A stretch of 64,000 nucleotides of DNA from Methylobrevis pamukkalensis (GTDB taxonomy: Bacteria > Pseudomonadota > Alphaproteobacteria > Rhizobiales > Pleomorphomonadaceae). Below the pieces are notes generated by a model that saw only the letters and a program-made list of their open reading frames with translations, was not told the DNA's origin and made no database searches. The position numbers were made by a program, and so were the translations under genes. The stretch spans positions 62,001-126,000 of the forward strand of contig NZ_MCRJ01000001.1 of assembly GCF_001720135.1 (NCBI RefSeq), read 5' to 3'. Positions 2,423-31,898 of the stretch are shown piece by piece; position 1 is the stretch's first letter, and each line of letters starts with the position of its first letter.

Positions 2423-2701
2423 GGTCAAGGCTCCGCAAGGGATGTCGCTCGGGATTCGCGCACGGCTCCGTCGGGCCATGCGTCCGGCATCGGGAAACCG
2501 CCGCGACACGCCGAATGATGCGTGCTGCGGCGGCTTTCCGATGCCGGATTACGTCTCACCCTCTCCGATGTCGCCAAGAGATAGCGGCTGATCGGGGTCT
2601 TTCATAGTGGGTGGATGCGGGGGCCGGAAAAGATGCTCCGGCCTGAACGCATGACGGACGAAATCGTTCCGGCGGCACGATGCCGCCGCTTCGGCGAAGG
2701 G

Positions 2702-15227: not shown

Positions 15228-15360
15228 TCCGGCTCCTGAACTCTGCTGCCGCCCATCAACCGGGCGCGCTGCCGGTTGTTCCCCTGATGAGGGGCACGCG
15301 ACCTGCCGCGACGGATAGAGTGGGGCCGGGGAACGGCCGCATCAAGGCAACCGGATTGTT

Positions 15361-17168: not shown

Positions 17169-17201
17169 GGACGGGAGGGCGTGTCCGCGCTCCCTTCCGG
17201 A

Positions 17202-18266
17202 TCAGGCGTCCCAGAAGCCGGCGGACATGTAGCGGGCCACCGGCAGGCCGAGGTCTGCGCGGAGGTAGCCGCGCACCCTGCGGGCCGCGGCGGCCTCGGC
17301 GGCGAAGATCACGTAGATGTCCTCGGCTGGGCCGGCGATCGGCAGCGCCCGGAAGGCCGCTTCGAGCGCCGCCGAGGCGGGCGCCGGCGCGGGCCGGCGG
17401 TGAACCCAGCGGATCGTGGCATTGCCGGGGGCGGCAAGGACAAGTTCGTCGTCGGGGCCATCGCATTCGAGCAGGACCTCGGCGCGGGCCTCGGCCGGCA
17501 TCTCTTCCAGCATGCGGGCAATCATCGGCAGCGCGGTCTCGTCGCCGGCCAGCACATAGCGCCGCGCCGGCGGCACGTCGCGGCCGACCGGGCCGTAGAC
17601 CGCCAGCCGGTCGCCGGCGCGGGCGCGGCGGGCAAAGCCGGCGCCGGGGCAGTGGTCGTCCTCGCCGTGAAGCAGGAAATCGATCGCCAGCGTGCCGGCG
17701 GCCACGTCGATGCGGCGGATGGTGTAGACGCGGACCTGCGGCTGCTCTGCCTCCTGGGGCCAGATCATGCGGTCGGCATCGGTGATCACGGGTTCGCCGA
17801 CGTCGGCGCCGGGGGTGTGCGGCAGGAGCAGGCGCAGATGCACGCCGCCGCGGGCGAACACGGCAAGATCGTCGCCGGCCAGCGTCAGCCGGCGCATGTG
17901 CGGGGTGATGTCGGCAACGCCGGTGACGGTCAGCCGCCGGTAGCTGCGCTTCGGGGCGGCGGCGGTGAGGGCCGCGCCGGTCCAGTCGACCTTTCCCGCC
18001 GCCTCGCCGCCGAACTCGCGCAGATGCGAGACCACCATCTCGCGCACCGCGACCATGCTGGCGTCGTCGGCGGCGCGGGCGACGATCTCGAAGGTCTCGC
18101 GCCGCCAGGAGAAGTCGATGCGGACGTCCGCCGTCTCGGCCCGCGCGGTCGACCCGTCCCGGCGCAGGTCGATGTGCTCCTCCAGATGGGCGCACATCTT
18201 CTCGAACACGTCACCGGCCCCGGGAAAGGTGACGCGGCCGGTGGCGCTGAGGGCGAGATCGCTCAT
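17202..18266 (-). CDS. Siderophore-interacting flavoprotein with N-terminal DUF2218-like domain
   Basis: Cytoplasmic FAD-dependent ferric-siderophore reductase of the ViuB/SIP family. Residues 1-95 (FEKMCAHLEEHIDLRRDG, VRIDFSWRRETFEI) look like DUF2218. From about residue 110 the SIP part follows: RRLTVTGVADITPHMRRLTL, FAD-binding RVYTIRRIDV, LHGEDDHCPGAGFARRA, the NAD-site region YVLAGDETALPMIARMLEEM, and the end YMSAGFWDA. The role is to release iron by reducing Fe(III)-siderophore with NAD(P)H. It is upstream of, and close to, the ABC gene. An inverted repeat 40 bases before the ATG may be its iron operator. Confidence 0.87.
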   Translation of the reverse strand: MSDLALSATGRVTFPGAGDVFEKMCAHLEEHIDLRRDGSTARAETADVRIDFSWRRETFEIVARAADDASMVAVREMVVSHLREFGGEAAGKVDWTGAALTAAAPKRSYRRLTVTGVADITPHMRRLTLAGDDLAVFARGGVHLRLLLPHTPGADVGEPVITDADRMIWPQEAEQPQVRVYTIRRIDVAAGTLAIDFLLHGEDDHCPGAGFARRARAGDRLAVYGPVGRDVPPARRYVLAGDETALPMIARMLEEMPAEARAEVLLECDGPDDELVLAAPGNATIRWVHRRPAPAPASAALEAAFRALPIAGPAEDIYVIFAAEAAAARRVRGYLRADLGLPVARYMSAGFWDA

Positions 18267-18304
18267 GAAAGGGTCCGGTCAGGGGCGGCGCGGGGCCGCC
18301 GGTG

Positions 18305-18329
18305 AAACATGACTATTGGATGCATGTTT
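18305..18329. promoter_or_regulatory. Inverted repeat upstream of the SIP gene, candidate operator
   Basis: AAACATG and CATGTTT, 7 bp each and perfect, separated by 11 bases in an AT-richer patch. It sits about 40 bases before the SIP start and just after the MFS stop. It could bind an iron regulator, but it does not clearly match a Fur, Irr or RirA consensus. Confidence 0.4.
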
Positions 18330-18367
18330 ATGGGATCGTGCCGGGCGGATCAAGTCGCGGGTCTGTC

Positions 18368-19619
18368 TCAGGACGGGCAGACGCCCGCCGCCACGTCGTG
18401 CCCTGCTCCTCCGGTTTCCGTGCTCCCTTTCTTGCCACGCGGCGCCCGGCCGAGGAAGGCCAGGGCGAGGCCGGCCGCGGCAAGGCCCGCGCCGGCGACC
18501 GGGATCGCCCCGGAACCGAGGTCGAGGCCGATGACGGCGCTGCCGAGGGCGGCGCCCACCGCATTGCCGAGGTTGAAGGCGCGACGTTGATCGAGGAGGC
18601 AAGGCCCGGCGCCTCGGCGGCGGCCTGCATCACCCGCATCTGCACCGGCGGCACGATGGCGAAGGCGGCCGCCCCCCAGACGAGGAGGCCGATGATCGCG
18701 CCGGCCTCGGTGGTGAGCGCCAGCGGCAGGGCCAGCATGATCACGGCGAGGGCGGCGAGGAAGATCCGGGTCGCCCCGTCCAGCGACCAGTCGGCAAGCC
18801 GGCCGCCGAGACCGTTGCCGAGGGTGAAGCCGACGCCGATCAGCACCAGGGCGAGGGTGACGAAGCCGGCGCCGGCGCCGGTGAGATCGGCCAGCACCGG
18901 GGCGATGAAGGTGTAGAGCGTGAACATCGCGCCGGCGCCGGCCACCGTGGTCGCCATGGCGATCAGCACGGCGGGGCGTGCCAGGACCCGCAGCTCGCGC
19001 TTCAGATCCGGCATCTCGCCCGGCGTTCCCTTCGGCAGCGCGCGCCACAGGGCGGCGATCGCCAGCAGGCCGAGGCCGGCGGTGCCGGCGAAGGCCATGC
19101 GCCAGCCGACCTGCTGGCCGATCCAGGTGGCGGCCGGCACGCCGCCGACATTGGCGATGGTGAGGCCCATGAACATGGCGGCCACCGCGCTCGCCCGCCG
19201 CTCCGGCGGCACCACGCTCGCCGCGACGATCGACCCGAGGCCGAAGAAGGCGCCGTGGTTGAGGCTGGTGACGAGGCGGGCCGCCAGCAGCGTGCCGTAG
19301 TCCGGCGCGATGGCGGAGAGAAGGTTGCCGGCGGTGAAGATGCCCATCAGCAGCATCAGCGCGCTGCGGCGGCGCAGCCGGGCGAGCGCCAGCGTCATCA
19401 GCGGCGCGCCGATCATCACGCCGATCGCATAGGCGCTGACCAGCAGGCCGGCGGCCGGGAGCGACACGTCGACCCCCGCGGCGATGACGGGCAGCAGCCC
19501 CATCGGCGAGAATTCCGTGGTGCCGATGGCGAAGGCGCCGACCGCAAGGGCAAGCAGCGGCCAGTTGATCCGGGCGCGGGCGTGGCAGCCGGCCCGGAGG
19601 GAGAAACCGTCGTGGTCAT
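18368..19619 (-). CDS. MFS drug/metabolite exporter (DHA1 family), two apparent frameshifts
   Basis: Twelve-helix proton-driven exporter of the AraJ/YdhP/Bcr type. The ATG at 19619 starts MTTTVSPSGPAATPAP. A base is missing near 19580, after which RINWPLLALAVGAFAIGTTEFSPMG (typical helix 1) continues. A second base is missing near 18582 (SSINV, then AFNLGNAVGAALGSAVIG). Other landmarks are LVSAYAIGVMIGAP, LARLRRRSALMLLMG and SLNHGAFFGLGS. The repaired length is about 416 residues. The divergent LysR gene probably controls it. The substrate is unknown. Confidence 0.85.
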
Positions 19620-19812
19620 GGGGATGTCCTTGTCCCGCTCGCGGACATGCGGATCCGCCCCGGAAAGCAGGTCCGGTGCGGCGTCCGCCGTTGGTGGTGG
19701 ATGTTGTCCCGGCGCTGCCGGGTCTCGGTCCCAGAGATACGTGCGCAGAGCTCTCTTGATAATCCGGCCGAATCCCACATCATCCGTGAATTCGTTTCAT
19801 GGATCGGGGCGC

Positions 19813-20742
19813 ATGGACAACCGGGCGGGCGAGATGCAGGTGTTCCTGCGGGTGGTGGAGGCGGGCAGCTTCTCGGAGGCGGCGCGGCGGATGCGGATGA
19901 CGCCGTCGACCGTCAGCAAGCTGATCGCGCGCACGGAGGCCCGGCTCGGCGTGCGGCTGATCGAGCGCTCGACCCGGCGGCTGTCGCTGACGGCGGAGGG
20001 CCAGCTCTACTACGAGCGCAGCGAGGCGCTGCTCGGCGACCTGGAGGAGATCGAGCGCAGCGTGTCGCGCGGCGCCGCCCGCCCGGGCGGCACGGTGCGG
20101 GTCAACGCCTCGGTCGCCTTCGGCGTGATCGGCATCGAGCCGCTGCTGCCGGCCTTCTGGTTGGCCTATCCGGACATCGTCGTCGACCTGTCGCTGTCCG
20201 ACGAGATCGTCGACCTGTTCCTCGACCGCACGGATGTCGCCTTCCGCACCGGGCCGCTGGCGGATTCGGGGATGATGGCGCGCAAGATCGGCGTCGCGCA
20301 TCGCAAGATCGTCGCAGCCCCCGCCTATCTTGAGCGGCGCGGCGTGCCGCAGACGGTCGAGGACCTCAACCATCACGCCTGTCTCGGCTTCAACTTCCGC
20401 CGCTCGGCCCCGGTCTGGCCGCTGCGCCAGGGCAGCCGGACCGTCGACCGGGCCGTGACCGGGCCGCTGATCGCCAACAGCGGCGAGATCGTCCGACGCC
20501 TCGCCGTGGCCGGCGCCGGCCTTGCCCGGCTCGGCGACTATCATGCCCGGGACGACATCGCCGCCGGCCGGCTGGTCGAGGTGCTGGCGGATGTGGTGGA
20601 GCGCGACGAGGAGCCGATCCACGCGGTCTGCCGCTCCGGCCCCGGCCTGCCGCGCCGGGTGCGCGCCTTCCTCGACTTCATGGTCCCGCCGCTGCAGGCG
20701 CTGCTGGAAGGTCGTGATGCGGCCGCAGACATCACGGCGTGA
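19813..20742 (+). CDS. LysR-family transcriptional regulator
   Basis: DNA-binding regulator of 309 residues. The N-terminal HTH (residues 1-60: MQVFLRVVEAGSFSEAARRM, STVSKLIARTEARLGVRLIERSTRR) is followed by an effector domain (residues 90-300) with FRTGPLADSGMMARKIG. It is of the LysR subgroup often found divergent from MFS exporters. The roughly 190-base gap to the MFS gene should contain both promoters and its binding site. The effector is unknown. Confidence 0.9.
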   Translation: MDNRAGEMQVFLRVVEAGSFSEAARRMRMTPSTVSKLIARTEARLGVRLIERSTRRLSLTAEGQLYYERSEALLGDLEEIERSVSRGAARPGGTVRVNASVAFGVIGIEPLLPAFWLAYPDIVVDLSLSDEIVDLFLDRTDVAFRTGPLADSGMMARKIGVAHRKIVAAPAYLERRGVPQTVEDLNHHACLGFNFRRSAPVWPLRQGSRTVDRAVTGPLIANSGEIVRRLAVAGAGLARLGDYHARDDIAAGRLVEVLADVVERDEEPIHAVCRSGPGLPRRVRAFLDFMVPPLQALLEGRDAAADITA

Positions 20743-21205: not shown

Positions 21206-21772
21206 ATGGGTTTGATGACCAACGTGGAACGTGAAGAGGAATGGGACCGCTGGATGCGCGCCGCCATCGCGGGTGACAACCGGGCCTATCATCGGTTCCT
21301 GACCGCGCTCACGCCGCATCTGAGGACGATCGCGCGCCGGCGCTGCAGCCAGCTCGGCCTTCCGCCGAGCGAGGCGGAGGACGTCGTTCAGGAGGTCCTG
21401 CTGGCCATCCACCTCAAGCGGTCGAGCTGGGATCCCGCCCGCCCGCTCCGGCCCTGGATTTCCGCCATCGTCCGCAACAAGCTGGTCGACATCCTGCGGC
21501 GGCGGGGACGGCACATCGACGTTCCTCTCGAAGACGTCGTCGCCGTCCTCGAGAGCGAGGGTCGCGCCGACTCCACCGACCGCATCGATGTGGAACACAT
21601 TCTGTCGCGGCTGGGGGATCCGCAGCGCACGATCGTGCATTCCATTTCGATCGAAGGTACGAGTGTACGGGAAACGGCGGCCCGGTTGAAAATGACGGAA
21701 GTCGCAGTACGTGTATCCCTCCACCGCGCCCTGAAATCACTCGCGACCTTCTACCGGAGTGAGAACGCTTGA
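21206..21772 (+). CDS. ECF sigma factor, SigF-like, paired with NrsF
   Basis: Extracytoplasmic-function sigma factor of 188 residues. Region 2 is about residues 25-90 (RRCSQLGLPPSEAEDVVQEV, RPLRPWISAIVRNKLVDILRRR). Region 4 is about residues 125-180 (RTIVHSISIEGTSVRETAAR, VAVRVSLHRALKSL). A second ATG at 21215 is possible. Its TGA overlaps the start of the DUF1109 gene, the arrangement of Caulobacter sigF-nrsF. Known relatives respond to metals or oxidants that hit Cys residues of NrsF. Two divergent operons 4 kb away carry SigF-type promoter motifs and are the predicted targets. Confidence 0.88.
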   Translation: MGLMTNVEREEEWDRWMRAAIAGDNRAYHRFLTALTPHLRTIARRRCSQLGLPPSEAEDVVQEVLLAIHLKRSSWDPARPLRPWISAIVRNKLVDILRRRGRHIDVPLEDVVAVLESEGRADSTDRIDVEHILSRLGDPQRTIVHSISIEGTSVRETAARLKMTEVAVRVSLHRALKSLATFYRSENA

Positions 21773-22404
21773 AAACCGATGACCTGATCGCGCTGCTGGC
21801 CCAGGATGCACCGCTGACCGCGCGCCTCGGCGACAGGCTGCGGCTCGGCGTCCTTGCGGCGCTGCTGCTGGCCGGTCTGCTGTTCGGGGCCGCGATCGGC
21901 GTGCGTCCGGATCTCGGCGCGGCGATGGCGAGCGACCGCTTCCTCTTCAAGTTCGTCGTCACGATCGCGCTGACCGTCAGCGCGGGCATTCTCGTGTTCC
22001 GGATCGGGCGCCCGGGCGTGCCGCTGCGCGTCCCTGCCTGGTGGCTGCTGAGCCCGCTCGTGCTGGCTGTCGCAGCGGCCCTGGCCGAACTCCTCGCCGT
22101 GCCCTCCGACGCATGGGGCGCGCGGATGATCGGCGAGAATGCCAGCCACTGCCTGACCATGATCCCGCTGCTGTCGATCGTGCCGCTTGCCTGCCTTCTC
22201 CATGCGCTGCGCTACGGCGCCCCGGAGCGGCCGGGCCTTGCCGGGGCGGTGGCCGGCCTGTTCGCCTCGGGCATCGCGGCGACCCTCTATGCGTCGAGCT
22301 GCACCGACGACAGTCCGCTCTTCATCCTGCTCTGGTATCCGATGGCGATCGCCCTCGTGACGGTGGCGGGATGGCTTGCGGGCCGGCGCCTGCTGCAGTG
22401 GTGA
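21769..22404 (+). CDS. nrsF: NrsF-like (DUF1109) anti-sigma factor
   Basis: Six-helix inner-membrane protein of 211 residues that should hold the ECF sigma factor inactive. It starts with TTG overlapping the sigma stop (TTGA), so the two are translationally coupled. The N-terminal cytoplasmic segment is MKTDDLIALLAQDAPLTARLGDRL, typical of DUF1109. Cysteines sit in NASHCLTMIPLL, VPLACLL and ASSCTDDSP. The first and last resemble the paired periplasmic-side cysteines reported to sense metal in the Caulobacter protein. The next gene converges on it. Confidence 0.88.
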   Translation: MKTDDLIALLAQDAPLTARLGDRLRLGVLAALLLAGLLFGAAIGVRPDLGAAMASDRFLFKFVVTIALTVSAGILVFRIGRPGVPLRVPAWWLLSPLVLAVAAALAELLAVPSDAWGARMIGENASHCLTMIPLLSIVPLACLLHALRYGAPERPGLAGAVAGLFASGIAATLYASSCTDDSPLFILLWYPMAIALVTVAGWLAGRRLLQW

Positions 22405-22458: not shown

Positions 22459-22872
22459 TCAGAGCGGCTTGACCACGGCAAGCCAGGCGATCGCGGCGAG
22501 ACTCCCGAGGATGACGGCGGGTGCGGTCCGCAGGACCGCCGGCGGGGGCAGGCCGTCCGCGAGACAGCGCGCGAGCGCCGCGCCCTGGGCTAGATGCAGC
22601 CCGGTCAGGAGCGTGGCCGGCCCGAGCTTCACCAGCAGCCACGGCGCGGTGTCCCATCCGCCGCCGAAGGCCATGGTGTAGCCGGCCATCCAGACGACGG
22701 CGAGGGCCGGTGTCGTGACCAGCCCGTCCCATGCACGAAGGCCGACGAGGAAGCGCCGGAGCCGGTCGTCCACGGGCGCCTCGGCAAGGCGCAGGGTGAG
22801 GGCAACAGCCAGCATGCCGCCGACCGCCGTCACCACCACGAAGACGTGCAGGGCCTTGATGTAGACGTACAC
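22459..22872 (-). CDS. CopD/HemJ-like four-helix membrane protein
   Basis: Inner-membrane protein of 137 residues with four hydrophobic segments. The start YIKALHVFVVVTAVGGMLAVALTLRL resembles the first helix of HemJ and CopD proteins, including the conserved His that binds heme in HemJ. It is last in the seven-gene redox operon, 14 bases after the preceding gene. It could be a heme-binding electron carrier or a protoporphyrinogen-oxidase relative; the company of a ferric-reductase/Rieske protein favours an electron-transfer role. I infer this from context. Confidence 0.65.
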   Translation of the reverse strand: MYVYIKALHVFVVVTAVGGMLAVALTLRLAEAPVDDRLRRFLVGLRAWDGLVTTPALAVVWMAGYTMAFGGGWDTAPWLLVKLGPATLLTGLHLAQGAALARCLADGLPPPAVLRTAPAVILGSLAAIAWLAVVKPL

Positions 22873-22886
22873 GCTCGTCCCCGCCC

Positions 22887-23096
22887 TCAGCGCATCAGGC
22901 GCGACAGCAGCGCATGGATCGCCGACAGCAGCACGAACACATAGGCGGCGAAGGCGAGGTAGCGCAGATCCCGGAAGGGCGTCGGATCAAGCAGCCCGAG
23001 GCCGTGGCGCCACGACAGGACGATGGCGAGGGCCGCTGCCGCGGCGACGGCAAGGCCGAGGAGATGGCGGCCGCGCCGCGGGTGGGGGTGGCTCAT
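22887..23096 (-). CDS. Small membrane protein (69 residues) of the redox operon
   Basis: Two hydrophobic segments (LLGLAVAAAAALAIVLSW and YLAFAAYVFVLLSAIHALL) after a His/Arg-rich start MSHPHPRRGRH. The ATG overlaps the upstream TGA as ATGA, so translation is coupled. No family recognised. His61 in the second segment could bind heme or a metal, but this is conjecture. It is likely a structural subunit of the neighbouring membrane redox complex. Confidence 0.6.
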   Translation of the reverse strand: MSHPHPRRGRHLLGLAVAAAAALAIVLSWRHGLGLLDPTPFRDLRYLAFAAYVFVLLSAIHALLSRLMR

Positions 23097-23862
23097 GACC
23101 GTTCCTCGCCGGCAAGGCCCGAGACCCTGAAGATCAGGAGGTCGTCGCGGCGTTCGACGGTTCCCTCCAGAACGACCGGAACGCCGGTCCTGTCCAGCAG
23201 GGCCGCGGGCATGGGGCCGCCATCCTCGGACGCCAGCAGGAAGAAGAGGTGTCCGGCCACCGGTGCGGTCGAGGCGAACACCGGTGGTACGCCGCCGGAG
23301 ATGCACAGGTTGGCGCAGGCCTTGTGGGCAAGGCCGGTGCCCGGCTTCATGGCGCCGGCAAGGCATTTCCCGTCGCAGATCTCGCCCGTGAGGCGCCACC
23401 TGCCCAGCGGTTCGGCGGCCGGCGGGGGCGGCGGGGCGGCCGGCGCCTCGGCCGCCCTCAGGTCGTTGCGGCCGCCGCCCACCAGCAGCATGTCGAGATC
23501 GCCGCGCCTGACGAAGATGCCGCCGGCCTCGACGGCGGTGCCGGCGAGCGGCTGCGCCCGGTCCGCCACGCCGAACTTTCCCGAGCCTGCAAGCATGATC
23601 GCCCGTGCCGGCGCGTCGCCCGCCGCGGGCACCCGGAGGATCGGATAGGGCCGCGTTTCGAGGATGCCGGTGAGCCGTCCGCCGCGCAACTCGTCCACAT
23701 AGCGCCCGGCGCGGGGCTGTCCGTGCCGGCGGACAGCAGCAGCGACGCGCAGGCAAGGCTCGCCAGGAAGAAGGCGGCGAAGGCGAAGGCCACGGCCCGC
23801 ACGTCCGGCGGCACCTTCCGGAAATAGCCGACGAAGAATCCGCGGTCGGCGGGCTTGAGCAT
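23093..23862 (-). CDS. Membrane-anchored protein with CxxxC/HxxCxxxC domain, apparent frameshift
   Basis: N-terminal membrane anchor (FAFAAFFLASLACASLLL), then an extracytoplasmic part of about 200 residues. Near the C-terminus is a dense motif LTGEICDGKCLAGAMKPGTG followed by AHKACANLCISGGVPP. It has four Cys and one His in CxxxC and HxxCxxxC spacing, plausibly a metal or cofactor site. A base is missing in the GGGG run near 23715; repair joins DSPRAGRYVDEL. The ATG overlaps the stop of the Rieske fusion gene as TGATG. I have the impression that such motifs occur beside Rieske or ferric-reductase-like genes in other genomes. Function unknown. Confidence 0.65.
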
Positions 23863-24938
23863 CACGCGGTTCCTTGCCTTGCGGGCGCGGCCGGGATCGG
23901 CAGCGGCTCGAGGCGCGTGCCGAGGGGCAGGGGATCGGGGTCGACCAGCACCGTCGTTCCCGCAAGCCGCACCCGATACTTGCGGATGCGCTCGCGGAAG
24001 GGCGGCGGCGAACAGCCGTCCTCCAGCCGGTACTGGTAGCCGTGCCAGGGGCAGGTCACCAGGCCGCGCACGACCTTGCCCTCGCCGATCGGGCCGTTCT
24101 GATGGGAGCAGACGTTGGAAAAGGCCGAGAGCGCGCCGTTCGACCGGAAGACGGCGATGCGCTCGCCGCCCGGACCGGCGCCGAGGATCGCCCGGCCCTC
24201 GGCGATTTCGGCGACATCACCGACGACGATCCACCCGTCGTCCGGATCGACCGGCGAGCCCTCCGCATCGGCCACGCGCTCGCGGCGTCCCGTGACCAGA
24301 TGCAGCGTGCACAGCAGCGCGAGGCCGCCGAGCGTCAGAAGGGCGAGCGTCATGTCGCGGCGGCTGGCCAGCGCCCCCAGCGCCACATGCAGCACCACGG
24401 CCGCATAGGCGGCATAGATGCTCATGTGGATGCCCTTCCACAGCGGGGGAGACAGGAAGGAGAGCCAGAAGTCGTGGCTGGTGACGGCGAGGATGCCGAG
24501 AATCAGCAGTGCGAGGATGCCGAAGATCTCGAAGGGAAAGCCGGCGATGCTGCCGAAGCTGGTGTTGCTGGTGAACAGCGCGGTCATCTGCGGCGTCGGG
24601 CTGTAGGCGAAATACCACGCCAGCACGTAGGCGGCGTGGGTGGCCGCCACCACCGCCGTGATCACGCCGAAGTGCCGGCGGTTGTAGAGCAGCGGCATGA
24701 AGCGTGTGTCGAGCCTGGCCAGCGGGCCGATGGCGAGCACGAAGGTCAGCAGCAGCAGGGCCAGCGATCCGAAGGCCCGCATGCGCCGGATCGGCGGGTC
24801 GACCTCCTGCAGGGCCGTCGAGATCTGCGGCCCGACGTTCAGGTAGAGCAGGATGTAGAGGACAATGCCCGCGAGCAGGACCGCGTCGTAGATCAGCTTC
24901 GTCCGGTTCCAGATGACGGGCTTGTAGGAAACGCTCAT
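23862..24938 (-). CDS. Ferric-reductase-like transmembrane domain fused to a Rieske [2Fe-2S] domain
   Basis: Inner-membrane redox protein of 358 residues. Residues 15-215 form about six helices of the ferric-reductase/MsrQ type. Candidate heme-b ligands are His89 and His101 (RRHFGVITAVVAATH) and His171 and His184 (GIHMSIYAAYAAVVLH). Residues 232-340 are a Rieske domain with CSH (Cys277, His279) and CPWHG (Cys296, His299). The flavin/NADPH domain of eukaryotic-type reductases is absent, so electrons would pass between heme and the iron-sulfur cluster. It is the core of the seven-gene operon. A bifunctional oxygenase-type role is less likely because no catalytic domain follows. Confidence 0.87.
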   Translation of the reverse strand: MSVSYKPVIWNRTKLIYDAVLLAGIVLYILLYLNVGPQISTALQEVDPPIRRMRAFGSLALLLLTFVLAIGPLARLDTRFMPLLYNRRHFGVITAVVAATHAAYVLAWYFAYSPTPQMTALFTSNTSFGSIAGFPFEIFGILALLILGILAVTSHDFWLSFLSPPLWKGIHMSIYAAYAAVVLHVALGALASRRDMTLALLTLGGLALLCTLHLVTGRRERVADAEGSPVDPDDGWIVVGDVAEIAEGRAILGAGPGGERIAVFRSNGALSAFSNVCSHQNGPIGEGKVVRGLVTCPWHGYQYRLEDGCSPPPFRERIRKYRVRLAGTTVLVDPDPLPLGTRLEPLPIPAAPARQGTA

Positions 24939-25096
24939 GGCTGCCCTTCCGCCGCCGGCGCCGCATCGAGCCGCACGGCGGGTGCGTCGGGCGCGGGTTT
25001 CGGCAGGGTGGTGAAGATGATCGCCACCGCGAGCGGCAGGACGACGGCAAGACCGGTCCAGATGGCGGCGTGGGCCCGGCGGTGGCGGCGCTGCAT
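24935..25096 (-). CDS. Single-span membrane protein (53 residues) of the redox operon
   Basis: A short protein with a basic start (MQRRHRRAHAAIW), one helix (TGLAVVLPLAVAIIFTTLP), and an Ala/Pro-rich acidic tail. Its TGA overlaps the ATG of the ferric-reductase/Rieske gene (ATGA). Size and topology suit a small subunit or assembly factor of a membrane cytochrome complex. No family recognised. Confidence 0.6.
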   Translation of the reverse strand: MQRRHRRAHAAIWTGLAVVLPLAVAIIFTTLPKPAPDAPAVRLDAAPAAEGQP

Positions 25097-25098
25097 GC

Positions 25099-25314
25099 CT
25101 AGCGCTCCTCTCTCGACCGCACGACCCAGCGCCAGAGGACGAGGGGCCACAGCAGGACGATCCCGGCGACCAGCAGGGGGCGGACGGCATAGGCGTCCTC
25201 GGCGCCCGGATCGAGGCGATCGAAGCCGTAGAGCAGGAAGGCGCCTGCCACGCACAGCCCGGCGAGGCCCCACAGCATCAGGGCGGCCGAGACCGGATCG
25301 GACGCGTCGGGCAT
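25099..25314 (-). CDS. Two-span membrane protein (71 residues) of the redox operon
   Basis: Two hydrophobic segments (ALMLWGLAGLCVAGAFLLYG and PLLVAGIVLLWPLVLWRWVV) joined by an acidic loop DRLDPGAEDAYAVR, with a basic end. It lies 10 bases after the dehydrogenase gene and 2 bases before the 53-residue protein gene. Tight packing and shared topology argue for a real gene. No family recognised. Confidence 0.6.
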   Translation of the reverse strand: MPDASDPVSAALMLWGLAGLCVAGAFLLYGFDRLDPGAEDAYAVRPLLVAGIVLLWPLVLWRWVVRSREER

Positions 25315-25324
25315 GGGTCCTCCG

Positions 25325-26029
25325 TCAGACGAGGCCTGTGGCCGGGATCGCGGCGCCGGTGACGACGCCCGCGCCGGGCGAGACGAGGAAGCCGATCAGG
25401 CGCGCGATGGCCTGCGGGGGGATCCAGCTGTCGGCCTTTGCGTTCGGCATGGCCGCGCGATTGACCGGGGTGTCGATCGTGCCCGGCAGGATGCAGTTGG
25501 CAGTGATGCGCCGCGCGCGGTTCTCGGCGGCGATCGCCTCGGTGAGCCGGAGGACTGCCCCTTTCGAGGCGGCGTAGGCGGCCTGGTTGGCCGTCGCCTT
25601 CAGGCCCGGGGCGGCGGCGATGTGGACGATGCGCCCGTATCCCGCGGCCTGCATCGGCTTGAGGACGGCGGCGCTGATCGCATAGGCCGACCGGGCGTTC
25701 AGCCGGATCATCCGGTCGAAGCCGTCGAGACCGTCCTCCTCGACCGGGCCGGTCTGAAAGCCGCCCACGGTGTTGACGAGAGCGTCCAGCCGGCCAAATT
25801 CCTCAAGGCATCTCTCCACGGCGAGGCGGCACGACGCCGCGTCGGTCAGATCGATGCCGGCGAGCTTGAGACAGGCCTGATCGGCCGGCAGCTCTGCCTG
25901 CAGCGCATCGAGCGGGGCCATCTCCCGCTCCACGCAGGCGAGACGGGCACCCGCGGCTGCCAGTTCCGCAACGACGGCACGGCCCAGATTGCCGCCCGCC
26001 CCGGTCACCATCACCACCTGTGGCTCCAT
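25325..26029 (-). CDS. Short-chain dehydrogenase/reductase lacking the usual catalytic Ser
   Basis: Classical SDR fold of 234 residues: nucleotide site VTGAGGNLGRAVV, then LVNTVGGFQTGP, and the YAASKG active-site Tyr and Lys. The residue normally a catalytic Ser (in the SS of the NISS strand) is Ala here: RIVHIAAAPGLKATANQAAY. The Asn of the tetrad (LNARSAY) is present. It may therefore be a weak or altered oxidoreductase. It is first in the redox operon, 54 bases after the predicted SigF-type -10 element. Confidence 0.85.
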   Translation of the reverse strand: MEPQVVMVTGAGGNLGRAVVAELAAAGARLACVEREMAPLDALQAELPADQACLKLAGIDLTDAASCRLAVERCLEEFGRLDALVNTVGGFQTGPVEEDGLDGFDRMIRLNARSAYAISAAVLKPMQAAGYGRIVHIAAAPGLKATANQAAYAASKGAVLRLTEAIAAENRARRITANCILPGTIDTPVNRAAMPNAKADSWIPPQAIARLIGFLVSPGAGVVTGAAIPATGLV

Positions 26030-26082: not shown

Positions 26083-26108
26083 TTCGGGCCCGGGTGGACG
26101 AATGTTAC
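26083..26108 (-). promoter_or_regulatory. SigF-type ECF promoter for the leftward redox operon
   Basis: On the minus strand GTAACA (26108-26103), exactly 16 bases, then CGAA (26086-26083). This fits the GTAACC-N16-CGAA motif I recall for Caulobacter SigF-dependent genes, with one difference in the -35 box. It sits about 55 bases before the SDR start. Confidence 0.75.
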
Positions 26109-26185: not shown

Positions 26186-26211
26186 GTAACGAAACACGCC
26201 CCGCCGGCGAA
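26186..26211 (+). promoter_or_regulatory. SigF-type ECF promoter for the rightward TPR/ThDP operon
   Basis: GTAACG, exactly 16 bases, then CGAA, facing right. It has the same architecture as the leftward copy 78 bases away. I saw no third copy in the window. Predicted transcript start is near 26218, giving a leader of about 90 bases. Confidence 0.75.
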
Positions 26212-26309: not shown

Positions 26310-27641
26310 ATGATGACACGCGACGTCTATGGCCTGTCGGCGAGCGCCAGCAACGCGGAGGCGACCCGCGCCTTCGAGCATGCCGTCCATGGCGTTGCGG
26401 CTCATCTGCCCACCACCGGCGTTTCGCTGCAGGCCGCCCTGTCGGCGGACCCCGACCATGTGCCGGCGCTTGCGCTGAAGGGTTTCGCGAACCTGATCCT
26501 TGCAAAATCCGAACTGGTGGAGACGGCCGCCGCGGCCTTGTCATCCGCCCGCGGGGCGCTGGCGCGCAAGGACGGGGGAACGGCCGACGAACGCATCCTC
26601 GTCCAGTCGCTAGAGGCAGCCCTCGCCGGGCATTTCGGACGGGCCGCAGAAATCCTCGACCAGGGATTTGCCGACAGGCCGACGACCTTCCTTCCCTTCA
26701 AGCTGTCGCATGCGCTCCGCTTCATGGTGGGGGACGCGGCGGGCATGCTGGTGGCGAGCGAGCGGGCGGTCGCGGCGATCGACAGCAGTCATGCCGCGGC
26801 CGGCTACCTGCTCGGATGCCATGCCTTCGCCCTCGAGGAACATGGCCGGTATCGGGAGGCCATGGAGGTCGGACAACGGGCCGTGACGCTCGCACCCGAC
26901 GATTCCTGGGGGCTGCACGCAGTCTCGCATGTCCACGAGATGCGCGGGGACACCAGCGCCGGCATCGACTGGCTGGAGAACAGCCGCAAGGCATGGTCGC
27001 GCTGCAACAACTTCTCGTTCCACATGGCCTGGCACCTCGGGCTCCTGCATCTGGAGCGTGGCGACCACGAGCGTGTGCTGCAGATCTACGACGACGAGGT
27101 CCGCCCGCAGCAGACCGACGACTTCCGCGACATGGCCAATGCGATTTCCCTGCTGTGGCGGCTGGAGCAGTCGGGCCTTCATGTCGGCGACCGGTGGACG
27201 GACATTGCCGAGATCGCCTCCCGGCGTCGCAAGGACACGGCGCTGGTCTTTGCCGTCCTGCACAACCTCGCGGCCCTCGTCGCGGTCGGCGACTGGACCG
27301 GTGTCGCCGATCTCGTCGAGGCGCTGGAGACCAGGGCGACCGGCACGGACGACCAGGCCCGCATCGCCGCCGAGATCGGCGTCCCGATGGCGCGGGTGCT
27401 GGCCGGGCTCGGCGCGCCGGCCGACCGGCAGATGCTCGACCGGATGGTGGCGAACCTGCCGAAGGTCGGCGGCAGCAATGCCCAGCGGGATTTCTTCGTT
27501 CTCGCCCTCGCCAAGGCGGTGGGCAACGTCGGCGACACCGTGGGTGTCAGCCGCATTCGCAGCGTCCGCCAGCGGCTGAAGGCCGAGGACCGTCTGTTCC
27601 AGTCCATCCAGCGGGCGGACGGCCTCAGCCTTTCGGCCTGA
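26310..27641 (+). CDS. TPR protein, TTC38-like
   Basis: Soluble helical-repeat protein of 443 residues with no signal peptide. Repeats are visible from about residue 50 to 350: ALALKGFANLILAKSEL, AGYLLGCHAFALEEHGRY, SWGLHAVSHVHEMRGDTSAG, FHMAWHLGLLHLERGDHERV. The conserved HAVSHVHEMRG and W-x-FHMAWHL patterns resemble tetratricopeptide-repeat protein 38 homologues. AAGGAG lies 4 bases before the first ATG and 7 before the second (26313); either may be used. First gene of the rightward operon under the predicted ECF promoter. The exact role is unknown. Confidence 0.8.
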   Translation: MMTRDVYGLSASASNAEATRAFEHAVHGVAAHLPTTGVSLQAALSADPDHVPALALKGFANLILAKSELVETAAAALSSARGALARKDGGTADERILVQSLEAALAGHFGRAAEILDQGFADRPTTFLPFKLSHALRFMVGDAAGMLVASERAVAAIDSSHAAAGYLLGCHAFALEEHGRYREAMEVGQRAVTLAPDDSWGLHAVSHVHEMRGDTSAGIDWLENSRKAWSRCNNFSFHMAWHLGLLHLERGDHERVLQIYDDEVRPQQTDDFRDMANAISLLWRLEQSGLHVGDRWTDIAEIASRRRKDTALVFAVLHNLAALVAVGDWTGVADLVEALETRATGTDDQARIAAEIGVPMARVLAGLGAPADRQMLDRMVANLPKVGGSNAQRDFFVLALAKAVGNVGDTVGVSRIRSVRQRLKAEDRLFQSIQRADGLSLSA

Positions 27642-27687
27642 TCCGTCCTCCCGGTCGCGTGCCCCTCCATTCCGAAGGTCTGAACGA

Positions 27688-28173
27688 ATGTCCATGAGCG
27701 ATGTGCCGAAACAACAGGTGTTTCCGATGCTCCGGCCAGGTCTGGCCAGCATCATCCTTGCGGCCGGCCTTGCCGCCGACATCGCGTGGGAGGTCTGGGC
27801 CCGCCTGATCACGCCGCTGCTGGTCGGCGGCCCGCTTCAGCCGGCCGCCCTCGTCCAGTCGGTCTTCGGCCTCAACAACCTCCTCCTCGCCGAAGCCATC
27901 CATGCGGTGGTGGGGATCGTGTTCTACCCGATCGGCTACCTGTTCATCGCCCGTCCGCTGCAGCGGCTCATCGTGCCCGGCCTGCCGTGGCTGCTGACCG
28001 GCATCGGCTTCGGGACCGGGCTCTGGGTGTTCGCGCTCTACGTCATGGCCCATCTTTTCGCGGGGCTGCCGGCCTTCCTCGGCTTTATTCCGTTGACCTG
28101 GGCGTCGCTGGTCGGACACATCCTGTTCGGCGTCGTCGTCGCCTTTGTCGTTCGCCGGATGGAGCGCGCGTAA
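27688..28173 (+). CDS. Four-helix membrane protein of the ECF-controlled operon
   Basis: 161 residues with four hydrophobic segments: PGLASIILAAGLAADIAWEV, AIHAVVGIVFYPIGYLFIA, WLLTGIGFGTGLWVFALYVM, and WASLVGHILFGVVVAFVV. His residues lie in the second, third-end (MAHLF) and fourth helices, which could bind heme, though this is only suggestive. It sits 46 bases after the TPR gene and 66 before the ThDP enzyme. No named family recognised with confidence. Confidence 0.7.
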   Translation: MSMSDVPKQQVFPMLRPGLASIILAAGLAADIAWEVWARLITPLLVGGPLQPAALVQSVFGLNNLLLAEAIHAVVGIVFYPIGYLFIARPLQRLIVPGLPWLLTGIGFGTGLWVFALYVMAHLFAGLPAFLGFIPLTWASLVGHILFGVVVAFVVRRMERA

Positions 28174-28239
28174 GCGCCGGCCGACCGAGCAAGGCGCGCG
28201 CCGCGCGCAGGCCGTCCCGTGTCCCGAGAAGCCGGTTTC

Positions 28240-29877
28240 ATGAGTCATCCCGATCCGCAGCAGCCCATGACCCGGGTCGCCGACACCGTCGCGCGCACCC
28301 TTCACAGCCACGGCGTCCGCCATGCCTTCGGCATGCCGGGCGGCGAGGTCGTGACCCTCATCGATGCCCTGCAGGCGGCCGGCATCGCTTTCCATCTGGC
28401 GCGCCACGAGACGGCGGCGGCGATCATGGCTGCTGGCGCCAGCACCCTGACGCGCCAGCCGGAGCTTCTGGTCACCACCGTCGGTCCGGGGCTGGCCAAT
28501 GCGGTCAACGGCATCGCCGATGCCTCCCAGGAGCGGGTGCCGCTCCTCGTTTTGTCCGGCATCGTCGATCGCGGAACGCGGGCGCGCTACACCCATCAGG
28601 TGATCGACCACGCCCAGATGCTGCGACCGCTGGTCAAGGCGTCCTTCGAGATCGAGCCGGAGAGTGCGGCCGCGACCGTGGCGCGCGCCATCGCGCTGGC
28701 GACGGCCGACCCGATGGGGCCGGTGCATCTCGACTTGTCACCGGCCATCGCCGCGGCGCGGGCGCCAGCCGCGTTGCCGGTCAGTCCGCCGGTCCTTGTC
28801 CGGACGGAGATCGCCCCCGGGGACCGCGCGGTGAGGGTGCTGGCCGGACGGATCGCGGCGGCGCGGCGACCGCTGGTCATCGCCGGGCTCGAGGCGGCAC
28901 GCGGCGGCGCCGGACCTGCGCTGCAACGTCTTGCCGAAGCCATCGGCGCGCCGGTCCTCTCCACCTACAAGGCCAAGGGCATCCTGCCGGAGACCCATCC
29001 GCTCGCCCTCGGCGGCGCGGGCCTGTCCCCGCTTGCCGACCGGGTCCTTCTCGATCTGGTCGGCCGCGCCGATCTCGTCCTGATGGTCGGATACGATCCG
29101 ATCGAGATGCGGATCGGATGGATGGACGCCGGGGGCGCGCCGGAGAGGACGGTGGAAATCGGCCGGTGGCTGCCCGACCATGCCATGCACCACGCAGGCA
29201 CCCGGGTCGTGGCGGATCCGGCGATGCTGCTGGAGGCTCTGGCCGGGGAGGTCGCGCCGGCGCCCGGCTGGACCGGCGGCGAGCCGGCCGCCGCGAAGGC
29301 GGCCCTGCGCGCCATCTTCGAGACGCCGGCGGGCGTCGGGCCTCATGCCCTGATCGACGTTCTCAACGATGTGGCGGGCGATGACGCGATCGTCACGGTC
29401 GACAGCGGCGCGCACCGCATCCTGCTGTCGCAGAAATGGGTGGCGCGACGCCCCATGTCGCTGCTGCAGTCGGCCGGCTTCTGCACGATGAACGCCGCCC
29501 TGCCGCTCGCGATCGGCGCGAAGGTCGCCGACCCGGCGCGGCGCGTCTTCGCCGTGATGGGAGACGGCGGCCTGGAGATGGGGATCGGCGAGCTTGCGAC
29601 GGTCCGCGATCTCGGGCTGCGACTGACCATCGTCGTGTTCAAGGACCGGAGCCTGGCGCTGATCGCCCTCAAGCAGGCGTCGGCCGGACTTGCGTCCGCG
29701 GGCGTCACGCTCGGCGACACGGACTTTGCCGCCGTGGCACGCGGGTTTGGCGGCCATGGCGCAAATGTGGAGACGGCGGATGACTTCCGTGACGAACTGG
29801 AGGCCGCAGGACAGCGCGGAGGCTTCACGCTCATCAGTTGCACCTTCGACAAGCGGGCCTATGACGGCGCATTCTAG
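28240..29877 (+). CDS. Thiamine-diphosphate-dependent enzyme, acetolactate-synthase-like
   Basis: 545-residue ThDP enzyme with the three domains of the acetolactate synthase/benzoylformate decarboxylase family. The N-terminal part has VRHAFGMPGGEVVTLIDAL, the cofactor-activating Glu in RHETAAA, and VGPGLANAVNG. The central domain is ALS-like. The C-terminal part has the ThDP motif start GDGGLEMG. The usual Asn-Asn at the end of that motif is replaced (VVFKDRSLALI), so activity may differ. An upstream GTG (28219) is possible, but the ATG is preferred. No small regulatory subunit gene is nearby, which argues against branched-chain amino acid synthesis. Substrate unknown. Confidence 0.82.
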   Translation: MSHPDPQQPMTRVADTVARTLHSHGVRHAFGMPGGEVVTLIDALQAAGIAFHLARHETAAAIMAAGASTLTRQPELLVTTVGPGLANAVNGIADASQERVPLLVLSGIVDRGTRARYTHQVIDHAQMLRPLVKASFEIEPESAAATVARAIALATADPMGPVHLDLSPAIAAARAPAALPVSPPVLVRTEIAPGDRAVRVLAGRIAAARRPLVIAGLEAARGGAGPALQRLAEAIGAPVLSTYKAKGILPETHPLALGGAGLSPLADRVLLDLVGRADLVLMVGYDPIEMRIGWMDAGGAPERTVEIGRWLPDHAMHHAGTRVVADPAMLLEALAGEVAPAPGWTGGEPAAAKAALRAIFETPAGVGPHALIDVLNDVAGDDAIVTVDSGAHRILLSQKWVARRPMSLLQSAGFCTMNAALPLAIGAKVADPARRVFAVMGDGGLEMGIGELATVRDLGLRLTIVVFKDRSLALIALKQASAGLASAGVTLGDTDFAAVARGFGGHGANVETADDFRDELEAAGQRGGFTLISCTFDKRAYDGAF

Positions 29878-31036
29878 CCCGGTCGAGGCACCGGCCGGGC
29901 CCACGGGAGGAACCAGCGTGGAGACCGCGAAGCCGGCGCGGGTGAAGCGGCCGCGCGATCCGCGGCTCGATTTCTTCCGCGGTGTCGGGATGGTCATCAT
30001 CCTTCTCGCGCATATCCCGGGCAACAGCTGGACGCTGTGGATTCCCGCAAGGTTCGGCTTTTCCGACGCGACAGAGATGTTCGTCTTCCTGTCCGGAATG
30101 GCGTCGGCCATTGCCTTCGGAACCACGTTCGACCGGCACGGCACGGTGGCGCTCGTCGCCCGGGTTGCGCATCGCATCTGGCAGATCTACTGGGCGCATG
30201 TCGCGATCTTCGTCACCATCACGGCGATCATGGTGACCGCCGGAACGCGGTATGACGGGGTGTCCTACGTCGCCAGCCTGAACCTCATGCCCTTCATCAA
30301 GGATCCCGGCCATCTGCTGGCGGCGCTGCTGGCGCTTGTGTATGTGCCGAACTATTTCGACATCCTGCCGATGTACATCGTCATCCTCGCGCTGATGCCG
30401 GTGATGCTGCTGGCCGAGCGGCTGCATCGGGGGGCATCTTTCGCGCTGATGATCCTGCTCTGGCTGGCAAGCCAGGTCGGGCTCACCGCGCTGCCCGCCG
30501 AGCCCTGGTCTGACCGGCCATGGTTCTTCAATCCCTTCGGCTGGCAGTTGCTGTTCTTCACCGGCTTCTTCCTCATGCGCGGCAGCCTGCCCGTGCCGCG
30601 CCCCAACCCGCTGCTGATGCTGCTTTCGGTCGTCCTCGTCCTCGCCTCGGTGCCTTTCGCCTGGGGCCCCTTTCACCAGATCCATCCGTTTTTCGGGGCG
30701 GCTGCCGCCGACATCGGCTGGCTGACCCAGAAGACCGATTTCGGGCTGCTGCGGTTCGTCCATTTCCTGGCACTCGGCTACATCGCCGCCAACGTCGTCG
30801 GCGAGCGCGGATCGCGGCTGCGCGGACGCGTCGTGGAGGTGATGAAGGTGGTGGGCCAGCAGTCCCTCGCCGTGTTCATGACCGGCATGGTGGTCGCCCA
30901 GATCATCGGCATCGGCCTCGATCTCGCGGGCCGCTCCGCTCTCGACGAGGTGATCGGCAACCTCTTCGGCATCGGCGTGCTGATCGCCGTCGCCTATCTG
31001 GTGCGCTGGTTCAAGGCCTCGCCCTGGAAGGCGTGA
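29861..31036 (+). CDS. OpgC-type membrane acyltransferase
   Basis: Polytopic membrane protein of 391 residues with about ten helices, matching OpgC (glucan succinyl/acyl transferase). The start RDPRLDFFRGVGMVIILLAHIPGNSW and FSDATEMFVFLSGMASAIAFG are OpgC hallmarks. It overlaps the ThDP gene by 17 bases, so the two are coupled. OpgC proteins add succinyl groups to periplasmic glucans; opgG and mdoH are about 28 kb away. Its place in an ECF stress operon suggests stress-induced decoration of glucan or another envelope sugar, an inference from context. Confidence 0.85.
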   Translation: MTAHSSPVEAPAGPTGGTSVETAKPARVKRPRDPRLDFFRGVGMVIILLAHIPGNSWTLWIPARFGFSDATEMFVFLSGMASAIAFGTTFDRHGTVALVARVAHRIWQIYWAHVAIFVTITAIMVTAGTRYDGVSYVASLNLMPFIKDPGHLLAALLALVYVPNYFDILPMYIVILALMPVMLLAERLHRGASFALMILLWLASQVGLTALPAEPWSDRPWFFNPFGWQLLFFTGFFLMRGSLPVPRPNPLLMLLSVVLVLASVPFAWGPFHQIHPFFGAAAADIGWLTQKTDFGLLRFVHFLALGYIAANVVGERGSRLRGRVVEVMKVVGQQSLAVFMTGMVVAQIIGIGLDLAGRSALDEVIGNLFGIGVLIAVAYLVRWFKASPWKA

Positions 31037-31088: not shown

Positions 31089-31898
31089 TCACCTCGGGAA
31101 CCCGACCGCCGACAGCCCGGCGTCGACGTCGCCGGACCTGACGACATGGCCGCCGTCATGGATGCACAGAAGGCTGGCGCCGCGCACGCAGCCGGGCGCC
31201 TCGTCGCAGGCGAGGCCGTCCAGCGTGGCGGTGCGCGGCTGCTCGATGTCGCAGCGCGCCTGCTCGCGCAGGATCGCGATGCTCCTGAAGGTGTCGCCCT
31301 GGTGCAGGCGGGAGCCGATGGCCCGGCCGGACAGCGGGAAGGTCCGGTCGGCGGTGCCGTGGAAATGGACCATGGGCGGCAGGTTCCGGGTGCAGTCGCC
31401 GGCCTGCGGGAGGGGGTTCCAGAAGACGCCGGAGAAGGTGACGAGACCGGCGACCTTGTCGCCCTGCAGGCAGGCCGTGTACCACGCCATCGACGCCCCG
31501 ATCGAAAAGCCTCCGATCACCGTGCTGGGCCCGGTGATCCCGAAGCGGGTCTCAAGGTCGGTGAGGACATCGGCGACGAACGCCTGGTCGTCGCGGCCCT
31601 GCTGCGGGTTGCCCGGAAACGACCAGCGCCCGGCGAGGCCGTCGACGGCGACGAAGGCGAGATGGTGGGCCAGCGTGGTGTCGACGAGGCCCCGCTGCCC
31701 GATCTGCAGGGCGGCGGAGCTCTTGTAGCCGTGAAAGAAGACGTAGGCGCCGCGGACGTCGCCGTCGGCCGGCAGTTCGATGCGATAGTCGCCGCCCCGG
31801 ATCGAGCAGACCGTCCCGCCGCCGCAGTCGGCGGCGAGGGTGGCGGTGCAGGCGGCGATGCCGAGGAGGACGCCCGCTGCAAGTGACCGGACCAACAT
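31089..31898 (-). CDS. Secreted alpha/beta hydrolase, PHB-depolymerase-like (LpqC type)
   Basis: Signal peptide MLVRSLAAGVLLGIAACTATLA, then a hydrolase fold of about 245 residues: oxyanion region VFFHGYKSSAA, nucleophile Ser in GGFSIGASMAW, PPMVHFHGTADRTFPL, and catalytic-type His in HDGGHVV. Four or more Cys suggest disulfides in the periplasm. Relatives include poly(3-hydroxybutyrate) depolymerases and feruloyl esterases. No substrate-binding or lipid-binding domain is visible, so it may act on short esters. It converges with the OpgC-type gene. Confidence 0.78.
   Translation of the reverse strand: MLVRSLAAGVLLGIAACTATLAADCGGGTVCSIRGGDYRIELPADGDVRGAYVFFHGYKSSAALQIGQRGLVDTTLAHHLAFVAVDGLAGRWSFPGNPQQGRDDQAFVADVLTDLETRFGITGPSTVIGGFSIGASMAWYTACLQGDKVAGLVTFSGVFWNPLPQAGDCTRNLPPMVHFHGTADRTFPLSGRAIGSRLHQGDTFRSIAILREQARCDIEQPRTATLDGLACDEAPGCVRGASLLCIHDGGHVVRSGDVDAGLSAVGFPR

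Follow-up and report, generated by a model that had tools for sequence, protein, structure and literature searches.

The 64,000-nucleotide stretch of Methylobrevis pamukkalensis DNA analysed here (the window; contig NZ_MCRJ01000001.1, positions 62,001 to 126,000) carries on its plus strand a run of four genes with short gaps, encoding, in this order, a tetratricopeptide repeat (TPR) protein, a four-helix membrane protein, a thiamine diphosphate (ThDP)-dependent enzyme and an OpgC-type acyltransferase, the last two reading frames overlapping by 17 bp. The operon probably belongs to a system for the dedicated supply of a non-succinyl acyl group to the decoration of osmoregulated periplasmic glucans (OPGs). 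The fuller proposal, that its products make this group, a succinate analogue and most likely 3-sulfinopropionyl, and attach it to the OPGs, has in our estimate about an even chance of being correct, while the assignment of the group as a sulfinate is, taken by itself, tentative. The layout given in a preliminary description of the locus, i.e. a one-strand operon of four genes with the last two overlapping behind a promoter of the extracytoplasmic function (ECF) sigma factor type, was borne out by the coordinates, the overlap and a GTAACG-N16-CGAA site. Two features had been omitted there: a convergent esterase-like gene, which is part of the module in relatives, and the opgGH genes on the same contig.

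The acyltransferase contains the OpgC_C domain (PF10129, E 3.8e-99, residues 32–385) and belongs to a subfamily which, in a search of the order to which the organism belongs, showed approximately 39–61% identity and was set apart from the other PF10129 paralogues near 30%. Reading of about 20 kb around 33 loci of this subfamily (34 with the window) revealed recurrent genes for the ThDP enzyme, the four-helix protein and a secreted esterase in varying order, and further recurrent neighbours were OpgH, a CoA-transferase of class III and YeeE/DUF302 genes for sulfur transport. When named genomes were scanned with the ThDP alignment, 80 loci were obtained. OpgC was found nearby in 75 of the 95 ThDP loci of the main set, and in 74 well-matched ThDP/OpgC pairs the two genes were always on the same strand and in 36 cases directly adjacent. 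The gene order of the module was reshuffled between lineages, from [DUF302]-ThDP-CoA-transferase-TPR-OpgC-OpgG-OpgH in the Rhodobacteraceae to TPR-four-helix protein-(esterase)-ThDP-OpgC-CoA-transferase in the Rhizobiaceae, the latter in agreement with the annotation of a Rhizobium plasmid. Among 150 genomes of the order, 25 had both the OpgC subfamily and the ThDP enzyme, 7 only the former and 16 only the latter; the ThDP enzyme was thus present in 25/32 genomes with the OpgC subfamily against 16/118 without it (Fisher p 7e-12, relatedness not corrected), and OpgC was accompanied by the TPR protein in 26 genomes (p 2e-19, likewise uncorrected for relatedness). The comparison of OpgC neighbourhoods proposed in the preliminary description therefore showed that the genes do co-occur elsewhere, and the suggested coupling of ThDP enzyme and acyltransferase is conserved far beyond chance, and in the Rhodobacteraceae both stand in one run with opgG and opgH, the genes for the glucan backbone. 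These two are direct neighbours of this OpgC subfamily in the Rhodobacteraceae and in several families of the order; in the window genome they lie on the contig of the operon, 24 kb away.

The OpgC proteins of Rhodobacter sphaeroides and Dickeya dadantii are likewise membrane acyltransferases with the PF10129 domain acting together with OPG backbone genes, and the opgGIH-opgC operon of R. sphaeroides is a known precedent, as cited in PMC4726272 and PMC9558356. In contrast to these systems, OpgC is accompanied here by the ThDP/CoA-transferase supply pair, the TPR protein and membrane proteins, and no such supply pair linked to OpgC was described in the open-access literature searched. In many Rhodobacteraceae (among them L129, L134, L135 and L142; e.g., at L142:9571) the ThDP gene is immediately preceded by a DUF302 gene, and other families have a YeeE/YedE sulfur transporter in its vicinity; together these are consistent with a sulfur link. 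A second PF10129 paralogue of the window genome (G000:C64:2285-3288, minus strand) gave its match in two adjacent pieces, possibly because of a frameshift or an assembly error.

The ThDP enzyme has the features of its superfamily, namely three TPP domains (Pfam, E 3e-20 to 1.5e-30), the catalytic Glu57, Asp442 within a GDG motif and Asp469 as the second metal-site residue; Glu57 and the metal ligands Asp442 and Asp469 were invariant among the relatives. Its nearest named families are the AlsS/PRK08322 acetolactate synthases, which are FAD-independent and with which it shares the fold, the catalytic Glu, the THQ and GYDPIE motifs, Asp as the second metal-site residue and the absence of a linked regulatory subunit; however, its score of 312.7 against the curated cut-off of 509 places it outside this family. 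It further differs from AlsS by the invariant Arg291, Arg393 and Trp294, by the loss of the Asn in front of the metal ligand and by its gene neighbours. In a comparison of 115 relatives (75 from OPG contexts, 20 from desulfinase contexts and 20 others) both arginines were found in all sequences, whereas AlsS (4rjj) has Asp and Ala in their place.

The replacement of the Asn-Asn end of the cofactor motif, pointed out in the preliminary description, was confirmed as Lys468-Asp469, but it does not make this enzyme special. AlsS-type relatives have Asn-Asp at this place, the final Asp was invariant (115/115) and the preceding position, occupied by Lys here, is V/Q/A throughout the subfamily. Since the metal-binding Asp is kept and the first Asn is lost subfamily-wide, the replacement is a family trait rather than the mark of a dead or exceptional enzyme, and the protein should be active, as judged from its residues. 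The enzyme was also said to be without a regulatory subunit; indeed, no gene for such a subunit adjoins it. AlsS-type enzymes are not known to need one. A biosynthetic acetohydroxyacid synthase deprived of its subunit was ruled out by the family scores. An oxalyl-CoA decarboxylase/formyl-CoA transferase pair, considered because the linked CoA-transferase is of class III, was rejected since the closest families of the ThDP enzyme are AlsS-type and not oxalyl-CoA decarboxylase; the window genome has a separate CoA-transferase/ThDP-paralogue pair on contig C138.

The identity of the acyl group is suggested by a second genomic context of the same enzyme. Most of the ThDP orthologues outside the OPG loci that had enough flanking sequence adjoin an acyl-CoA dehydrogenase homologue, with some of the genes overlapping; such a desulfinase-type homologue was present beside the ThDP gene in 20 loci, while loci L137, L156, L167, L170 and L207 had neither it nor OpgC. 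All seven of the proteins scored (from L128, L163, L133, L177, L192, L204 and L211) exceeded the cut-off of the NCBIfam model for 3-sulfinopropionyl-CoA desulfinase (NF042439; 649–678 against 600) and fell far below the cut-off of every dehydrogenase model, including that of glutaryl-CoA dehydrogenase (213–228 against 470). Among PDB entries 5af7/5ahs matched best (526 bits, the next having 276); the entry itself says acyl-CoA dehydrogenase, and we take it to be the Advenella desulfinase. The homologues have R84 (19/19 readable sequences), Q246 (20/20) and a Gly replacing the dehydrogenase Glu, a combination which presumably is the signature of the Advenella enzyme. Genes for aspartate transaminase-like (AspAT-like) and succinate-semialdehyde dehydrogenase (SSADH)-like proteins stand beside the ThDP gene in L163 and L182, and a transaminase gene in L171; the arrangement on the Cupriavidus necator plasmid pBB1 (L182) is CoA-transferase-desulfinase ... 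AspAT-like-ThDP-SSADH-like. The gene sets of L163 and L182 thus outline a pathway from an amino acid to a 2-oxo acid, a semialdehyde (by the ThDP enzyme), an acid and a CoA ester, followed by desulfination.

The two contexts have these enzymes in common. A class III enzyme of this type is linked to ThDP, OpgC and TPR genes in most of the relatives' loci, and the CoA-transferases of the desulfinase loci are also class III proteins, which reach no specific model and are interleaved with the OPG-locus enzymes; those of L128, L132, L163, L164 and L171 are 63–73% identical to one from a Rhodobacteraceae OPG locus. In the trees of both the ThDP enzyme and the CoA-transferase the desulfinase-context proteins fall within or between the OPG groups, which implies several switches of context, some of the deeper nodes being weakly supported. 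Furthermore, 39 positions of the ThDP enzyme, including Arg291 and Arg393, are nearly all the same in the 75 OPG, 20 desulfinase and 20 other sequences. In the window genome, with its 86% complete assembly, no close desulfinase was found, the best match having 32% identity.

The known degradation of 3-sulfinopropionate (Act, AcdA/Acd) in Variovorax and Advenella likewise combines a ThDP-type enzyme with a CoA-transferase of class III: in V. paradoxus TBEA6, IlvX ("putative acetolactate synthase") and a semialdehyde dehydrogenase are encoded in the act/acdA locus-tag stretch, and both ilvX and the semialdehyde dehydrogenase rise on 3-sulfinopropionate (PMC6370202). In contrast to this system, the OPG loci have OpgC and no desulfinase, so that the acyl-CoA would go onto the glucan instead of being degraded.

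Among the loci with neither OpgC nor desulfinase, L167 and L170, in records titled Kibdelosporangium aridum and Rhodococcus rhodnii, have a near-identical ThDP gene and surroundings, which suggests contamination or mislabelling of one assembly or a very recent transfer. Locus L137 contains at 14749-20002 three seemingly identical 1440-bp genes in tandem, spaced at 1907 bp (protein MSMERQQGGGYQLDLFDEALMKALRPEAPG...), which may be copies of a mobile gene or an artefact of the assembly.

Together, the conservation of these genes argues that the ThDP enzyme, OpgC, the TPR protein and usually the class III CoA-transferase form a functional unit, often with opgGH. In the mechanism proposed, the ThDP enzyme would form a semialdehyde by decarboxylating a 2-oxo acid whose far end is acidic. 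Arg291 and Arg393, which the AlsS-type relatives lack, are candidates for holding this acidic end. A dehydrogenase encoded outside the operon would oxidise the semialdehyde to the acid, the CoA-transferase would convert it to the CoA ester at the expense of succinyl-CoA, and OpgC, judging from its family, would transfer the acyl group across the membrane onto the OPG glucose. The group is unlikely to be succinyl because the CoA-transferase making it would itself use succinyl-CoA. The acid is most likely 3-sulfinopropionate or a close relative since the ThDP/CoA-transferase pair adjoins the desulfinase in other loci, and the substrate would accordingly be 2-oxo-4-sulfinobutanoate because of the desulfinase, SSADH-like and aspartate transaminase-like gene context; the desulfinase, SSADH-like, AspAT-like and sulfur-transport neighbours all favour this assignment. 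Being isosteric with succinate, 3-sulfinopropionate would fit a succinyl-transferring OpgC fold. One acyl-CoA might then have two fates, being degraded by the catabolic operons and passed to OpgC by the OPG operons. The genes are accompanied in most loci by a dedicated CoA-transferase of class III, which is why an unusual acyl group for envelope sugars, as first suggested for this operon, is the best interpretation. Of the substrates first put forward for assay, 2-oxoglutarate stays as the ordinary alternative, while a longer 2-oxo acid that ends in an acidic group is more likely than either pyruvate or oxaloacetate.

Several observations weigh against this proposal. The characterised OpgC proteins transfer succinyl (PMC4726272, PMC9558356), and the deletion in V. 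paradoxus of ilvX, whose product may or may not be an orthologue of the ThDP enzyme, left growth on thiodipropionate unchanged (PMC6370202). The OPG-type loci showed no aldehyde dehydrogenase among their conserved genes, and the 7 genomes mentioned above have the OpgC subfamily without the ThDP enzyme. No OPG-type CoA-transferase was found in the window genome, whose assembly is 86% complete, or within about 10 kb of the module in its two nearest relatives; the unlinked homologues of the latter (52–55% identity) are not diagnostic because one of them adjoins a distant ThDP paralogue. Where the gene was not found, SucCD could substitute by analogy with Advenella, for which it was reported to activate 3-sulfinopropionate (PMC6370202, PMC5373536).

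The precedent of succinylation in every characterised OpgC (PMC4726272, PMC9558356), together with the SSADH-like genes adjoining ThDP in L163 and L182, leads to the most ordinary alternative, namely that OpgC uses succinyl-CoA of the citric acid cycle, with the ThDP enzyme acting as a 2-oxoglutarate decarboxylase which aids the succinate supply under stress. This is unlikely, since succinyl-CoA is a central metabolite whose supply does not call for a ThDP enzyme of its own, the linked CoA-transferase would serve no purpose for succinyl, and the link of the ThDP/CoA-transferase pair to 3-sulfinopropionyl-CoA desulfinase would stay unexplained. Another dicarboxylic acyl group, such as glutaryl made by a 2-oxoadipate decarboxylase and a succinyl-CoA:glutarate CoA-transferase, would agree with the nearest NCBIfam model of the CoA-transferases (succinate--glutarate CoA-transferase, 427–477 bits) and with the presence of the succinate--hydroxymethylglutarate CoA-transferase structures 9br6/9br7 among their best PDB matches. 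However, these scores are far under the cut-off of 750 and the partner homologue in the second context is, by the scores given above, a desulfinase and not a glutaryl-CoA dehydrogenase, which makes a glutaryl-type group improbable.

It is very improbable that the ThDP enzyme is an acetolactate synthase-like carboligase, whose hydroxy-oxo acid product or a derivative would be either the decorating group or an unrelated metabolite: the kinship with AlsS/PRK08322 and the shared catalytic Glu, THQ and GYDPIE motifs speak for such a reaction, but the score of 313 against 509, the two arginines in place of the Asp and Ala of AlsS and the transaminase context in L163, L171 and L182, with a semialdehyde dehydrogenase in L163 and L182, are in conflict with it. 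Finally, the acceptor might be another envelope sugar (lipopolysaccharide, capsule or other glycan) rather than the OPGs, as there are several PF10129 paralogues per genome, opgGH of the window are 24 kb off and the examined Rhizobiaceae loci had no opgGH beside the module. The direct adjacency of opgG/opgH to this very subfamily in the Rhodobacteraceae and several families of the order argues against a different acceptor, for which the probability is low.

As to its expression, the operon is best explained as a module under predicted sigma-F control. Its upstream site agrees in 9/10 positions with the sigma-F consensus of Caulobacter, GTAACC-N16-CGAA (PMC3511200), and no sigma-70 promoter was found. 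The pattern GTAAC-N17-CGAA occurred exactly twice in 64 kb against 0.06 matches expected by chance, both in the 280-bp region that separates the TPR gene from the divergent short-chain dehydrogenase/reductase (SDR) gene, pointing in opposite directions. The window also contains a gene pair for an ECF sigma factor and an NrsF anti-sigma factor, a pair typical of the ECF16 group according to PMC8315932, so that the stress-related ECF control suggested earlier is supported by motif and neighbours alike. The same combination of sigma factor, NrsF and GTAAC-N17-CGAA promoter characterises the ECF16 sigma-F/NrsF regulons (Caulobacter SigF, Brucella BcrS/AbcS), while the sulfite-responsive RpoE1/RpoE4 of Sinorhizobium meliloti were rejected as a model, being ECF26 proteins with other promoter motifs. 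In five Rhizobiaceae relatives the TPR gene is preceded at approximately 90–103 bp by GTAACG-N16-CGTA; the site of a sixth has a spacer of 17 bp, and the more distant L120 has the perfect sigma-F consensus. The motif was absent upstream of the module in some of the relatives examined, and sigma-F control is not universal because the exact motif was just moderately enriched over all loci (26 found against 9.5 expected from a rough shuffle). Glucan-decoration genes are not among the targets described in the portion of the ECF16 regulon literature covered, while here they are predicted targets.

The divergent operon (22459-26029, minus strand), which shares the sigma-F-type promoter region with the module, encodes the SDR protein, a small membrane protein, an MsrQ-like/Rieske fusion and more membrane proteins; in Rhizobium, too, the SDR and Rieske genes adjoin the module. 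As an electron-transfer protein the fusion is unusual, and its MsrQ-like part resembles the methionine sulfoxide reductase (Msr) genes described as common to ECF16 regulons in PMC8315932.

The TPR protein was recognised by Pfam only below threshold (TPR_14, E 1.8e-4), and neither Pfam nor NCBIfam assigned it to a specific family; AlphaFold confidently predicts an all-helical solenoid (pLDDT 91.5), for which Foldseek returned generic TPR solenoids only, with low TM scores. The family has about 65 invariant residues, including HAVxHV (203–208), NNxxxHxxWH (233–242), DDxRD (270–274) and GGSxAQRD (387–394). Such clustering of invariant His, Asn, Asp and Trp (alignments A3 and A5) is unusual for a plain scaffold, and the protein may be an enzyme. 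The protein may resemble the TTC38-like TPR family. Of the 34 OpgC loci read first, the window among them, 22 had a TPR homologue; the TPR protein was also paired with ThDP without OpgC in L199, as were distant homologues in L194, L196 and L211, and because of these pairs its tie to the ThDP step is no weaker than that to OpgC. The four-helix protein had no match in the Pfam and NCBIfam scans. On a Bosea plasmid an annotated polyhydroxybutyrate (PHB) depolymerase family esterase adjoins ThDP-OpgC. The coordinates of the features are collected in Table 1.

Table 1. Features of the operon and of its surroundings in the window.
Feature	Position	Strand	Basis or remark
TPR-type solenoid protein, 443 aa	26310-27641	+	sub-threshold Pfam and predicted model
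Four-helix membrane protein, 161 aa, kept in the module	27688-28173	+	no known family
ThDP-dependent enzyme, AlsS/PRK08322 branch	28240-29877 (alternative GTG start 28219)	+	Pfam, residues
OpgC-type membrane acyltransferase, 391 aa	29861-31036	+	PF10129
Predicted sigma-F (ECF16)-type promoter GTAACG-N16-CGAA of the TPR-four-helix-ThDP-OpgC operon	26186-26211	+	about 100 bp before the TPR start
Predicted sigma-F-type promoter GTAACA-N16-CGAA of the divergent SDR/Rieske operon	26083-26108	-	motif scan
Secreted alpha/beta-hydrolase, PHB-depolymerase/esterase type, convergent	31089-31898	-	recurs next to the module
SDR oxidoreductase, first gene of the divergent operon	25325-26029	-	adjoins the module in several loci of Rhizobium
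Rieske-domain membrane protein with a ferric-reductase/MsrQ-like part	23862-24938	-	conserved with SDR
ECF sigma factor	21215-21772	+	
NrsF (DUF1109) anti-sigma factor	21769-22404	+	PF06532, E 4.9e-54
OpgG (MdoG) periplasmic glucan biosynthesis protein	809-2428	-	PF04349, E 9e-191; about 24 kb from the operon
OpgH glucosyltransferase, truncated by the window start	1-821	-	

The decoration of OPGs by OpgC is known, and what appears to be new here, going by the open-access literature searched, is the conserved linkage of an acyl donor-making enzyme pair to it. The acyl substituents of OPGs have so far been regarded as the work of a lone acyltransferase acting on a central metabolite; a dedicated donor-making pair, if true, would imply that the cell selects its substituent and regulates it. 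Envelope chemistry of a new kind would be involved if a periplasmic sugar bore a sulfinate ester, and a sulfinate under the control of an oxidant-responsive sigma factor would be a considerably more surprising finding, the possible ECF16 sigma factor being of the type that responds to oxidants, hypochlorous acid among them. In its widest and rather doubtful form, the idea is that many alphaproteobacteria derive an OPG 3-sulfinopropionyl group from a sulfur amino acid via the ThDP/CoA-transferase pair, in some lineages under ECF16 control, and that these readily oxidised sulfinates would provide the periplasm with both a fixed anionic charge and a sacrificial sink for oxidants. Glucan decoration would then be joined to sulfur metabolism and oxidant stress, and there would be a testable role for an enzyme which annotations call acetolactate synthase or "thiamine pyrophosphate-binding protein", its plasmid-borne copies in Rhizobium and Sinorhizobium included.

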